A stretch of 64,000 nucleotides of DNA from Acidobacteriota bacterium (lineage in GTDB: Bacteria; Acidobacteriota; Vicinamibacteria; Vicinamibacterales; UBA2999): NCBI GenBank assembly GCA_021731165.1, contig JAKFXY010000004.1:1-64000 (forward strand). Reading direction: 5' to 3'. The first letter of the stretch is position 1. Each line of letters starts with the position of its first letter. Below the pieces are notes generated by a model, which was not told where the DNA came from, made no database searches, and saw only the letters and a program-made list of their open reading frames with translations. Positions 51,295 through 64,000 of this stretch are shown in pieces. Both the position numbers and the translations under genes were made by a program.

Positions 51295-51588
51295 TCATCG
51301 TGGCGTCTTCGTTGCCCTTCCCTTCACCTGTGACCCTTTACCTGTGACGCGGCCCTTCTGCCATTCCCGGTTCATCTCGGCAAGGCCCTCCATGTAGACG
51401 TGGGCTTTCGCCCGCTCTTCCTCGAGGGAGAGAGACTTGAGCAGCTCGAGGGCGTGCGCGAAGTCGTGGTCGAAGGTCTTCCTCGTCGTGGCGAAGTAAA
51501 TCTTGCGGATCTCCGCGAGGGCGGCCTTGGCGTCAGGGGGGGGCTGCGTGAGTGAGCTCAGCGCCACGAAGCCAACGTGTTTACTCAC
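51295..51588 (-). CDS. Small helical hypothetical protein downstream of the GHMP kinase
   Basis: GTG start overlaps the kinase stop (GTGAGTAA); ALAEIRKIYFATTRKTFDHDFAHALELLKSLSLEEERAKAHVYMEGLAEMNREWQKG. Confidence 0.6.
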   Translation of the reverse strand: MSKHVGFVALSSLTQPPPDAKAALAEIRKIYFATTRKTFDHDFAHALELLKSLSLEEERAKAHVYMEGLAEMNREWQKGRVTGKGSQVKGRATKTPR

Positions 51589-60159: not shown

Positions 60160-61962
60160 CTAGCGGGCCGGTGCGCCACCTGAGGGCGGCGGTACGACCG
60201 GAACAATCGGGGCAGCGCCAGGGCGCTGCGCTGGTGGTTGTTGCGCCTCAGGTGGGGTCGGCAGCTGCAAGGGAGGCTGGATCGGGAGGTCAATGACCGA
60301 CGCCGCTGGATCGGTCCCGACGCGGAACGGCCGCAGATCGGACTCCGAAAGGTCCAGCACGCGAATGATGTGCGGCGTCAGCGTGAGGACGATGTCGGTT
60401 TCCTGCGTTTCGCGCTTGGTGTGCGCGAAGAGCCTGCCGACAAACGGGATATCGCTCAAGCCGGGAATCCCCTGGACGACCTTTCGCTCGTCGTCACGAA
60501 TCAGGCCGGCGAGCAGGTTCGTCTCTCCGTCGCGCAGTCGGATCACCGTATTGATGGCGCGGTTGCCGAACGTGGGCAGCCCTCCGAACCCGGTGCCGGA
60601 GATGCTGCTGACTTCCACTCGTACCGCCAGCGACACCTCGTCGTCATGGTGGGTGCGCGGCGTGATGTCGATATTCACGCCGATGTTCTCGTAGTTGAAC
60701 GAAGTAATTGGCTGCTGGTTCACTCCGCCGGTGGCGATGGGGGAGAAGGTCGTGACCGGCACCGGTACGCGCTCGCCGAACCGCGCCTGCGAGGTCTGGC
60801 CCTCGGATGTCCGGAGCTGGGGGTTGGCCAGCGTTCGTGTGTTGCTGTCTGTCTTCAAGAGCCGGTAGAACAGGCCCGGCAGGTTCGTCATCAGGATGTC
60901 AGACTGCGCGAGGTTTCTGACGTCGCGTAGAGTGAGCCCTTCCGAGTTGGCATCGGCCGCACCGTTGATCCCAGGGGAGCCTGGCGAGGCGAGCTGGAGG
61001 CCGTACTCGCTGAGCCTCGTGCGGTCAACTTCCAACAGCTCAACATCGATGACGACCTCGGGCCGGGCCTTGTCGATCGCCGAGATGAGCTTGCCGGCGG
61101 CCGCGATGCGTTCAGGCGTGTCCTTGATCGAGATGGCGTTGGTGGCCGTCGTCGGCGCGATGCGTCGGCTGTCGATCACGATCCGGAGCAGGTCGATCGT
61201 CTCCTTGAGGTCGGCGTTGCTCAGATAGAACGTGCGGATGATCTCTTCCTCGTATTCGCGGCGCTTGGCGGGATTGTCGGGGATCACCGTAATCGTCCGC
61301 TGCGCCGTTACCTTATAGAAGTTCCTGGTCGCCTGCGAGATCGATGTCAGCGCCTCGTCCAGGGCGGCGTTTCGGAGGTCGATCGTCAGCGGTTCCTCGC
61401 GGAACGTCGGGTCGAAGACGATATTGACGTTTGCAAAGCGCGCGATCGCCGTATACACGTCGCGTGAACCCGCGCCGCGAAATATGAGCGACGAAGGGAG
61501 CCGCACATCAGCGGGCAGGTCCATGCCTGGAGGGCCCATGGTCCGGGAACGCTCGATGAGCGATTCGAGCCGTGTCTGGCCTTCGCGTGCGACAGCGACC
61601 TTGGCCCGCTGCTGATTGCGTACATCGCGGAGGAGCCCGTCAATATCGCCGCTGGCGGGGTTCAACTCCGACGCCACCTGCAGCTCAACGAGGGCCTCGT
61701 CCAGTTTTCCGGTTGATGCCAGGCGGCGTCCACGGGAGAAGTGATCCTGTGCGGCCCGCATCTTGGCGCGGTCGAGGGCCTGGCGCACTGCCCGGTTGTC
61801 GGGCTGCGCCTTGAGCACCTTGGTGTACTCGATGACGGCGCGGTCGTAGTCCTGGGCCTGCTCGGCGCGCTGGCCGGAACGGATCGCGCCGCCAGTGGCG
61901 CATCCGGCCAGGGTCAAGGCGAGCGCCGCCATGGGCGCAAATCGGCTAATTTGGTGTGCCAT
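60160..61962 (-). CDS. Secretin (GspD/PilQ family) lipoprotein with N-terminal TPR-like repeats
   Basis: Lipobox LTLAGCATGG; DYDRAVIEYTKVLKAQPDN repeats; secretin core NIVFDPTFREEPLTIDLRN, VPVPVTTFSPIATGG, VVQGIPGLSDIPFVGRLFAHTKRETQETDIVLTLTPHII. Confidence 0.9.
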   Translation of the reverse strand: MAHQISRFAPMAALALTLAGCATGGAIRSGQRAEQAQDYDRAVIEYTKVLKAQPDNRAVRQALDRAKMRAAQDHFSRGRRLASTGKLDEALVELQVASELNPASGDIDGLLRDVRNQQRAKVAVAREGQTRLESLIERSRTMGPPGMDLPADVRLPSSLIFRGAGSRDVYTAIARFANVNIVFDPTFREEPLTIDLRNAALDEALTSISQATRNFYKVTAQRTITVIPDNPAKRREYEEEIIRTFYLSNADLKETIDLLRIVIDSRRIAPTTATNAISIKDTPERIAAAGKLISAIDKARPEVVIDVELLEVDRTRLSEYGLQLASPGSPGINGAADANSEGLTLRDVRNLAQSDILMTNLPGLFYRLLKTDSNTRTLANPQLRTSEGQTSQARFGERVPVPVTTFSPIATGGVNQQPITSFNYENIGVNIDITPRTHHDDEVSLAVRVEVSSISGTGFGGLPTFGNRAINTVIRLRDGETNLLAGLIRDDERKVVQGIPGLSDIPFVGRLFAHTKRETQETDIVLTLTPHIIRVLDLSESDLRPFRVGTDPAASVIDLPIQPPLQLPTPPEAQQPPAQRPGAAPIVPVVPPPSGGAPAR

Positions 61963-62608
61963 CGGTGATGACGTCGACGCCGCGCGGAATACGAAACGCA
62001 AACTCCTTATCGGACAACCCCAGGTTTTCCTTCAGATTGGTGAAGATGAGGGTTGATTCGCCCCCCTGCCGGTCCCGCGTCGTCAGGGCGCGCCACGTGA
62101 GGGTGGCCGGGTCTACGGCAATCACGAGGTACTCGTACTGGGGTTCCTCCCGCCTCGGAATGAGCTTGAGAGCGAGGGTGCCGGGCACCGGCGATTCAAC
62201 GTACGACGCGGTAAAGTCGCGTCCGATGTCTCCCTTGCCAGCCAGGAAGAGGGCCGGCGTCGTAGCCTGATCCTCCGTGGGGACCGGGGTGACAATCACT
62301 TGTCTGTCGAGCGGGATGTACGAGTAGACCTTTACGCCGTCGGAGACGAACTCCTTCTTCTCCGGAGCCATGTAGATAAACCGCATCCTCCCGGGCTTCT
62401 TCACCGAGACCGTCCCCTGTTCCTTGGTCTGCGTACGGAGCGCCCCGCCGCGATAGGTGTGTACGAAATCGGCGGAGAAATCGCGTACCCCTTGGTACCG
62501 CTGCTGGAGCGAGCGGGCAAGCGCTTCGGCCGAGGGCCGGGTCTGCGCCGAAACGAGGCCACCGGAGAGAGCGAGGACCAAGGCGAAGAACGGCAGACGG
62601 CTCACCAT
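61946..62608 (-). CDS. lolA: Outer-membrane lipoprotein carrier protein LolA-like
   Basis: Signal peptide; LQQRYQGVRDFSADFVHTYRGG...GTVSVKKPGRMRFIYMAPEKKEFVSDGVKVYSYIPLDRQV. Confidence 0.88.
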   Translation of the reverse strand: MVSRLPFFALVLALSGGLVSAQTRPSAEALARSLQQRYQGVRDFSADFVHTYRGGALRTQTKEQGTVSVKKPGRMRFIYMAPEKKEFVSDGVKVYSYIPLDRQVIVTPVPTEDQATTPALFLAGKGDIGRDFTASYVESPVPGTLALKLIPRREEPQYEYLVIAVDPATLTWRALTTRDRQGGESTLIFTNLKENLGLSDKEFAFRIPRGVDVITDGTPN

Positions 62609-62653
62609 AGAACCATAGCACGCGAGTCATGGCCCGGACCCAGGCCTGAGCCC

Positions 62654-63940
62654 TCACATTCTGGCGCGTTTGCGTGCGACGAATGCCCGGACCTCATCCA
62701 CACCACGCGCATTCAGTACATGGCGCGGCTCAACCCAGCCGCGGCGTGCCGTGCCTGTGCCGAAGCCCATCTGCCGGCCCAGCCATTCCGCACGATGCGC
62801 GTCGCTGCTGACGGTGAGTGTGACTCCGGCCAGAGCGGCCAGACGGGCCACTGAGCCGTCCATGTCCAAGTGGCCGGGCGCACCGTCGATCTCCATCGCC
62901 GTCCCGGTGGAGACAGCCGCGTCGAACAGCCGCGCAAAGTCGAGATCGTAGCCGCTTGATCGCGCGGGCGAACGGTTGGCGGGATGGGTAATGACGTTCA
63001 CGAGCGGGTGATGCATGGCCCGGAGGTAACGCCCCGTCAGGCTCGCACCGTCCTGGCCGGCCTCGTCGTGGAGCGATGCCAGCACGATGTCGAGGTCTTG
63101 GAGCAGCGAATCATCAAAGTCGAGACTACCATCCGGCATGATGTCGACCTCGACGCCGTGCAGAATCTGGATACCCACCACGCGCAGTCGCAGCGACTCG
63201 ATTTCGGCTTTCTGCCGCGCCACATCCGCCACGGCGAGCGTACGTGACGCTGCGGCACGTTCGGAATGGTCCGTGATGGCCACGTACTCGTAGCCGAGCT
63301 GCTGGGCTGCGCCCACCATATCCTCGAGTGAATCTCGGCCGTCACTCCAACTGCTGTGCACGTGGAGGTCTCCCCGGATATCGCTCTCATAGACCAGACG
63401 GGGCAGCCGCTCCCGGAGCGCCGCGTCGATCTCATCAGTTCCATGGCGAAGCTCGGGAGGAATATGTGGCAGGCCAAGCAGCTCGTAGAAGTGGGCCTCC
63501 GTCCGGCACTCGACGACAGTCCTTCCGCGGAGGAGCGCGGGGGAATCGAACGCAAGTCCATGGTCCACGGCTTTTGCGCGTAGCAGGGCGAGGTGATCGT
63601 CTGCACCCGTGTGCCAAGCGAGGGCGCTGCCCGCGCTCTCAGGCGTTGCCAGGTGCAGGGTCAGAGCGCCGCGCTCGGTCGTGAGGCTGCGCGCGCGGGA
63701 TGACGTCGCCGAGGTGGTTGTCACGATCGATAACGTCGTGAACCCTTTCAGGACTTGTGCGTGCTTCGATTCCGGGGCGATGACGAGGAGGGCGACGTCT
63801 TCCAGCTCTGGAGCAAATCGTCGAAGACCGCCGACGTGGTGGAGCTCATCGAAGGGCAGCCCAGCGCGGCGAGCCTCACGCGCGACTGTCGATGCGAGGA
63901 GGTGCGCGCGTCCGAGGGAAATGCGTGAGGAGAAGGACAC
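62654..63940 (-). CDS. PolX-derived PHP domain protein (degenerate polymerase palm + PHP)
   Basis: PHP motifs DLHVHSSWSDGRDSLEDM, ITDHSE, HGVEVDI, LASLHD, NVITHP, SSDAHR; N-terminal region resembles the PolX palm domain but lacks catalytic Asp residues. Confidence 0.85.
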   Translation of the reverse strand: MSFSSRISLGRAHLLASTVAREARRAGLPFDELHHVGGLRRFAPELEDVALLVIAPESKHAQVLKGFTTLSIVTTTSATSSRARSLTTERGALTLHLATPESAGSALAWHTGADDHLALLRAKAVDHGLAFDSPALLRGRTVVECRTEAHFYELLGLPHIPPELRHGTDEIDAALRERLPRLVYESDIRGDLHVHSSWSDGRDSLEDMVGAAQQLGYEYVAITDHSERAAASRTLAVADVARQKAEIESLRLRVVGIQILHGVEVDIMPDGSLDFDDSLLQDLDIVLASLHDEAGQDGASLTGRYLRAMHHPLVNVITHPANRSPARSSGYDLDFARLFDAAVSTGTAMEIDGAPGHLDMDGSVARLAALAGVTLTVSSDAHRAEWLGRQMGFGTGTARRGWVEPRHVLNARGVDEVRAFVARKRARM

Positions 63941-64000
63941 GGCGCCACGATCTTATCCACGATGGGCAGGGAATTCACGGTCCCGTTTCAGCGATACTAG

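Follow-up and report, generated by a model that had tools for sequence, protein, structure and literature searches.

A polymerase-dead PolX-family protein with an intact PHP metal site, an altered PHP rim and no HhH region from an acidobacterium

The gene and its surroundings

Close to the end of the window, by which we mean the whole 64,000-nucleotide stretch of acidobacterial DNA analysed here, the reverse strand carries a PolX-family gene (62654..63940), identified from its open reading frame and by phmmer and NCBIfam matches, that starts at GTG and encodes a polymerase-dead, HhH-less protein of 428 residues. Residues 9-424 align with residues 160-572 of Thermus thermophilus PolX (phmmer, E 1.5e-69), and the top NCBIfam match is PolX itself (PRK08609), below the cut-off and only from model position 179. 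Pfam matched the thumb and the PHP domain; the same scan of the 428-residue protein returned neither an HhH nor a palm match. The reading frame is closed by an in-frame TAA (63953..63955, reverse strand) lying 12 bases upstream of the GTG start, and neither the list of open reading frames nor the sequence offers an alternative start ahead of the palm. The window copy is free of stops and frameshifts.

Past the end of the window, a VanZ-like ORF in divergent orientation begins roughly 100 bp from the start of the PolX-family gene and is followed by tRNA-Ala and pfkA (names read from the sequences), so that no space is left for a separate HhH gene. An HhH hidden upstream, in another frame or in a separate ORF is ruled out by the frame and the neighbouring genes. 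On the other side, 45 bp downstream and on the same strand, lies a LolA-like gene (61946..62608, reverse strand), named from its translation rather than from a profile scan, followed by a TPR/secretin-like gene that was also named from its translation; the adjacency of the PolX-like and LolA-like genes is kept across the order. The arrangement of PolX-like, LolA-like and TPR-secretin-like genes on one strand (60160-63940 in the window) is likewise kept in several families of the order; the three genes possibly form one transcription unit, in which an obvious functional link is absent. The source assembly is metagenome-like (161 contigs, 86.7% complete), as are most of the genomes used for comparison, which are metagenome assemblies. 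Relatives that carry a name are metagenome-assembled genomes of Acidobacteria and Vicinamibacteria, and the window probably stems from an acidobacterium of the latter class.

Lineage, palm and N-terminal region

Across 162 genomes of the order we distinguished two kinds of PolX, namely a canonical, full-length kind (A), with 35-41% identity to the window protein, and the window protein's own kind (B), with 44-63%. When 193 genomes of the class were searched at E < 1e-80, matches were found in 55, every one of them from the window's order; among the genomes searched, the dead B lineage is limited to its own acidobacterial order. Fifty-four B proteins were aligned, of which 17 belong to the window's family (18 genomes with fragments, 15 genera), and compared with 48 canonical sequences (kind A and other acidobacterial sequences). 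Not one of the 54 B proteins retains an intact palm triad, the residues at its three positions forming 26 different combinations, whereas D-D-D is found in 48/48 canonical proteins. B is monophyletic in all the trees built, by FastTree or with reduced IQ-TREE runs, at support values that range from weak to high, the labels on re-rooted trees being read with caution. In palm-containing trees B joins the main noncanonical PolX cluster, and in PHP-only trees this grouping depends on the omission of the actinobacterial PolX of L052. The trees do not support an origin of B as a duplicate of the canonical paralogue carried by the same genomes, A and B being sisters in none of them.

The palm domain of the window protein (residues 7-99; 63644..63922, reverse strand) is, on the basis of alignment, AF2 and Foldseek, predicted to be folded and catalytically dead, with a dN/dS of about 0.45. 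Alignment to T. thermophilus PolX places D48 (63797..63799) at D198, which is kept, A50 (63791..63793) at D200 and T94 (63659..63661) at D240, all on the reverse strand, so that two catalytic Asp residues are lost; the register of this D-A-T triad is anchored by the GDVTLL and VTLHV motifs of relatives. An AF2 model of the 428-residue protein, built from 13 sequences (pLDDT 93.9), matches the T. thermophilus PolX structure 3AUO at a TM of 0.90 and an rmsd of 2.1 A in a Foldseek superposition, from which a folded palm without its catalytic residues is predicted. The original prediction had read the triad as D-A-T in a protein of PolX ancestry: both claims are borne out, the first by the alignment, the relatives' register and the model, and the second by the phmmer match and the superposition.

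The thumb follows at residues 100-170 (63431..63643, reverse strand; Pfam PF14791, E 2.9e-12); what Pfam calls the thumb is called the fingers in the PolX literature. The motif of the dNTP pocket reads WHTGADDHL, as against YFTGSKAHN in canonical PolX. Neither domain has been shortened, since the palm comprises 93 and the thumb/fingers 72 residues, compared with 90-92 and 73 in canonical relatives. We have high confidence that the window protein cannot polymerise DNA. Polymerisation by way of the one Asp that is left, together with other acidic residues, could be entertained because the palm fold and the first Asp are kept, and polymerase activity was once reported for the D. radiodurans PolX, whose triad is A-E-E; however, the Deinococcus enzymes were later found to be inactive as polymerases (PMC9226535), in 7/17 members even the first Asp has given way to G, S, E or H, and both the dNTP pocket and the N-terminal domain are missing, which makes such an activity highly improbable.

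As to the N-terminus, the B frames of the window's family either meet a stop just ahead of the palm or lack a start codon for an N-terminal domain. The same architecture in 17 orthologues of one bacterial family, one of which is not assessable because it begins at the end of a contig, argues for more than chance. It also makes it hardly credible that a wrong start, a frameshift or an assembly error masks the N-terminus: the metagenome-like assembly in 161 contigs would invite such an artefact, but 16 further orthologues from many genera (including the one at the contig end) share the architecture, and the divergent gene starts only about 100 bp upstream. The absence of an upstream HhH domain, first deduced from the TAA at 63953-63955, has thus been confirmed by the frame, by Pfam and by the neighbouring genes.

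B proteins from the remaining families of the order extend further at the N-terminus. In a profile comparison by hhalign (probability 98.2%, E 4.5e-14) this extension proves homologous, along its length, to the 8-kDa/HhH region of canonical PolX. Its hairpins are gone, with GVGPKTV, for instance, turned into GAVTIEQL; Pfam HHH_8 is found in 0/35 of these longer proteins and HHH_5, weakly, in 4/35, as compared with HHH_8 at about 1e-20 in the canonical paralogues. The HhH-less group is nested inside the longer B proteins in the tree (support 0.994) and, therefore, the losses were likely staged, the palm dying and the HhH eroding first and the whole N-terminus disappearing later. Separately, the dead PolXs of family f15 (L060, L101, L104 and L108) appear to have shed the first N-terminal part on their own, and N-terminal loss may accordingly have occurred more than once.

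The PHP domain and its rim

The PHP domain (residues 190-428; 62657..63373, reverse strand; Pfam PF02811, E 2.4e-12) holds, by alignment, all nine metal ligands, namely H193, H195, D200, H225, E264, H291, H319, D380 and H382, in agreement with the complete metal-binding motifs noted at the outset. The nine ligands are likewise present in 54/54 B proteins, from many genera. In the HhH-less group, median pairwise dN/dS is 0.20 for the PHP domain, 0.30 for the thumb and 0.45 for the palm, compared with 0.29, 0.23 and 0.41 in the canonical paralogues; dS is near saturation in many pairs and these ratios are rough. Nevertheless, dN alone gives 0.23 for the PHP domain versus 0.52 for the palm in the HhH-less group, so that constraint has clearly shifted to the PHP domain and the palm is the least constrained domain of these proteins. 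The description of a PHP protein with a vestigial regulatory palm therefore survives in part: the palm is dead and the PHP domain intact, but a regulatory role is not borne out for a palm that is folded and yet the least constrained domain. The same data bear on whether the protein is a non-enzymatic remnant, either a structural or regulatory partner or a protein in decay. We regard this as very unlikely, although the palm is relaxed, catalysis by the palm is lost, the N-terminus is missing and some genomes of the family are devoid of any PolX, because the PHP domain evolves at a dN/dS of about 0.2, its ligands are invariant in many genera and the window copy is uninterrupted.

The rim of the PHP domain has changed. 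In Bacillus subtilis PolX, residues F440, R469, R474, N498, R503 and K545 guide DNA to the PHP site (Rodriguez et al., PMC6616362), and the efficiency of AP-endonuclease cleavage falls 480-fold in F440A and 1674-fold in R503A, with exonuclease efficiency reduced 32-fold and 20-fold, respectively (PMC6616362). At the position of F440 the window protein has A294 (63059..63061, reverse strand; alignment), and the dead clade (n=54) mostly Ala or Gly. At that of R503 it has H357 (62870..62872, reverse strand; alignment), a His found in 54/54 dead-clade sequences in place of the Arg of 48/48 canonical PolXs. N498 is replaced by Asp in 53/54 of the clade, a change that is also present in the active T. 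thermophilus PolX and is by itself uninformative. Among the HhH-less proteins, 16/17 no longer have R474; across the dead clade, on the other hand, R469 is mostly kept, and Arg occupies the position of K545. A differential-conservation search between the dead clade and the canonical proteins returned only four strictly switched sites (301, 322, 352 and 357), all of them in the PHP domain; among these, N322 (62975..62977, reverse strand) is Asn in 54/54 of the dead clade and Gly in 44/48 canonical sequences. The net charge of the PHP domain is slightly more negative in the dead clade.

These replacements were compared with a small panel, without Bacteroidetes, of seven dead PolXs (D. radiodurans, two from Bradyrhizobium, two from Mesorhizobium, Microvirga and Legionella) and two actinobacterial PolX-like proteins, all of which have R469, R474, N498, R503 and either F or L at 440. 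Within this panel the rewired rim is, as judged from the alignments, specific to the acidobacterial clade. With the rim rewired, the exonuclease function of PolX should not be transferred to these proteins unchecked; the plain reading of the protein as a PolX nuclease is weakened by sequence changes, in this lineage, at PHP positions on which DNA cleavage by B. subtilis PolX depends.

Known relatives, the canonical gene and proposed function

Polymerase-dead, PHP-active PolX proteins were established by Prostova et al. 2022 (PMC9226535), the only paper that our search of the open-access literature for PolX, Acidobacteria and the PHP domain found. In that work altered proteins amount to 27.5% of prokaryotic PolX, the 8-kDa domain is full length in 95.3% of all sequences, many but not all noncanonical PolXs have deletions in the palm and fingers, and proteins with a dead palm and an intact PHP domain are shown to be exonucleases (PMC9226535). 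The window protein shares with such noncanonical PolXs, for example that of D. radiodurans (2W9M; Foldseek TM 0.83-0.85, 31% identity), the altered triad, the altered dNTP pocket, the intact PHP ligands and the palm-thumb-PHP order. It differs from them in the complete absence of the 8-kDa/HhH region, eroded in sister families, in its unshortened palm and thumb, and in the replacement of F440 and R503 (and R474), which are kept by the D. radiodurans and rhizobial dead PolXs. Canonical PolX1 (T. thermophilus 3AU2/3AUO, B. subtilis) has in common with it 34-37% identity from the palm to the C-terminus, a TM of 0.90 and the nine PHP ligands, and is set apart by the window protein's dead triad, rewired PHP rim and lack of the 8-kDa/HhH region.

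A 2026 publication (PMC12926913) reported reduced PolX-like proteins in which the polymerase domain is missing. These actinobacterial proteins (PRK07945) are, as here, derived from PolX and reduced towards PHP, and the window protein matches the PRK07945 model with E 1.3e-51, below the cut-off, through PHP homology; however, they lack the whole polymerase region while preserving part of the N-terminus and the PHP rim residues, whereas the window protein keeps palm and thumb. PolX2 (PMC12926913), with an intact polymerase site and no PHP domain, is the reverse on both counts. Stand-alone PHP proteins of the E. coli YcdX type (1M65) share the PHP fold and the metal site (TM 0.82 by target length), but with only 24-26% identity, and the window protein, with its palm and thumb, is far closer to PolX. 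The combination of a dead palm and an active PHP domain is therefore of a kind already known; what is new is the order-restricted lineage, the switch in the PHP rim and the missing canonical gene.

A search of the whole window assembly (86.7% complete) turned up no PolX besides the dead protein; the full-length PolX that the original prediction had left to be looked for is also missing from its syntenic site. In relatives the canonical PolX gene is flanked by a GHMP-kinase-like gene and a short conserved ORF; in the window these two neighbours are 41 bp apart and the site is empty (51543..51584, reverse strand). The same site is empty in four more genomes of the family, G003, G007, G011 and G017. 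As G026 has kept the canonical gene and G011, from the same genus, has not, canonical PolX was probably lost more than once. The window's family includes genomes with the dead form only, the canonical form only, both or neither, and consequently partnership with the canonical form is not obligatory for the dead one.

Two further genomes of the comparison contain shortened canonical proteins. In G012 (L075:14082-15173), a deletion beyond motif I has removed most of the PHP domain from a canonical PolX with an intact D-D-D triad, which is accompanied by a dead, PHP-intact protein; the two would be complementary halves if this is not an assembly error. In G029 (L078:1240-2178), which has no dead type, a canonical PolX is decaying, with a palm deletion that takes the region of the third Asp and a PHP domain cut approximately as in G012. 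A division of labour between a polymerase-only canonical protein and a PHP-only dead one was rejected as a general explanation, as it is seen in G012 only and G029 has a decayed canonical gene without the dead form. Ku is present in 35/43 genomes of the family that were searched, but no Ku gene was found in the window genome (86.7% complete) or in G011, which has the dead PolX only, and an obligatory partnership in NHEJ was discarded. A role as backup for absent AP endonucleases was also discarded, Xth being present; a profile search for Nfo gave no match above the cut-off.

Conservation of the metal site, together with the constraint on the PHP domain, argues for a working metal-dependent phosphoesterase, its activity, metal and substrate being inferred; the altered rim and the loss of the domains that grip DNA point to a substrate that is changed or narrower. 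With a little better than even confidence, we thus read the window protein as a PHP metallo-phosphoesterase of altered specificity on an inert polymerase scaffold. According to this proposal, the protein has lost two of its three catalytic Asp residues, the dNTP pocket and, at the N-terminus, the entire 8-kDa/HhH region, and selection would have retained the PHP domain with its metal-dependent phosphoesterase site (Mn-dependent in PolX), while palm and thumb would stay folded as an inert scaffold or a docking surface. The DNA-guiding rim residues (F440, R503 and N498, as well as R474 in the window's family) would have been replaced early and then fixed. The protein would then most likely cut phosphoesters different from, or narrower in range than, those of PolX, for example a specialised 3' end or a nucleotide or nucleic-acid phosphoester, and a general role as 3'-5' exonuclease or AP endonuclease would be less likely.

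Some features speak against altered specificity. R469 and the basic residue at the position of K545 may preserve some of the DNA path, and the His at the position of R503 could still contact phosphate. The protein could then be an ordinary noncanonical PolX that merely lacks the HhH, acting as a Mn-dependent 3'-5' exonuclease or a repair nuclease that cleans 3' ends, like D. radiodurans PolX. This is a plausible alternative to which we give appreciable but lesser weight: the dead-palm, intact-PHP layout is that of the demonstrated exonucleases (PMC9226535), and all PHP ligands, R469 and the Arg at the K545 position are kept in a protein that resembles 2W9M in sequence and fold. On the other hand, F440, R503 and, in the window's family, R474, without any one of which B. 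subtilis PolX falls short of its full nuclease activity, are replaced although other dead PolXs keep them, the DNA-gripping HhH is lost and the PHP net charge is slightly more negative. A phosphoesterase of altered specificity remains our preferred reading, and we tentatively suggest, short of favouring it outright, that PolX has been dismantled in stages within one order and its PHP rim re-specified, giving rise to a new specificity on a fossil scaffold that has outlived canonical PolX in several genomes, among them that of the window.

The fixed switch at a residue required by B. subtilis PolX to cleave DNA provides a directly testable hypothesis on specificity. Annotation of these proteins as "DNA polymerase/3'-5' exonuclease PolX" may occur, and it would mislead inventories of DNA repair in Acidobacteriota. 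The B lineage provides a natural series of intermediates that links a complete repair polymerase with a protein that is almost PHP alone. It adds to the dead PolXs and the actinobacterial PolX-like proteins already known, and it shows which parts of PolX selection has kept, namely the PHP domain, and which it has discarded, the polymerase and the DNA-gripping HhH.
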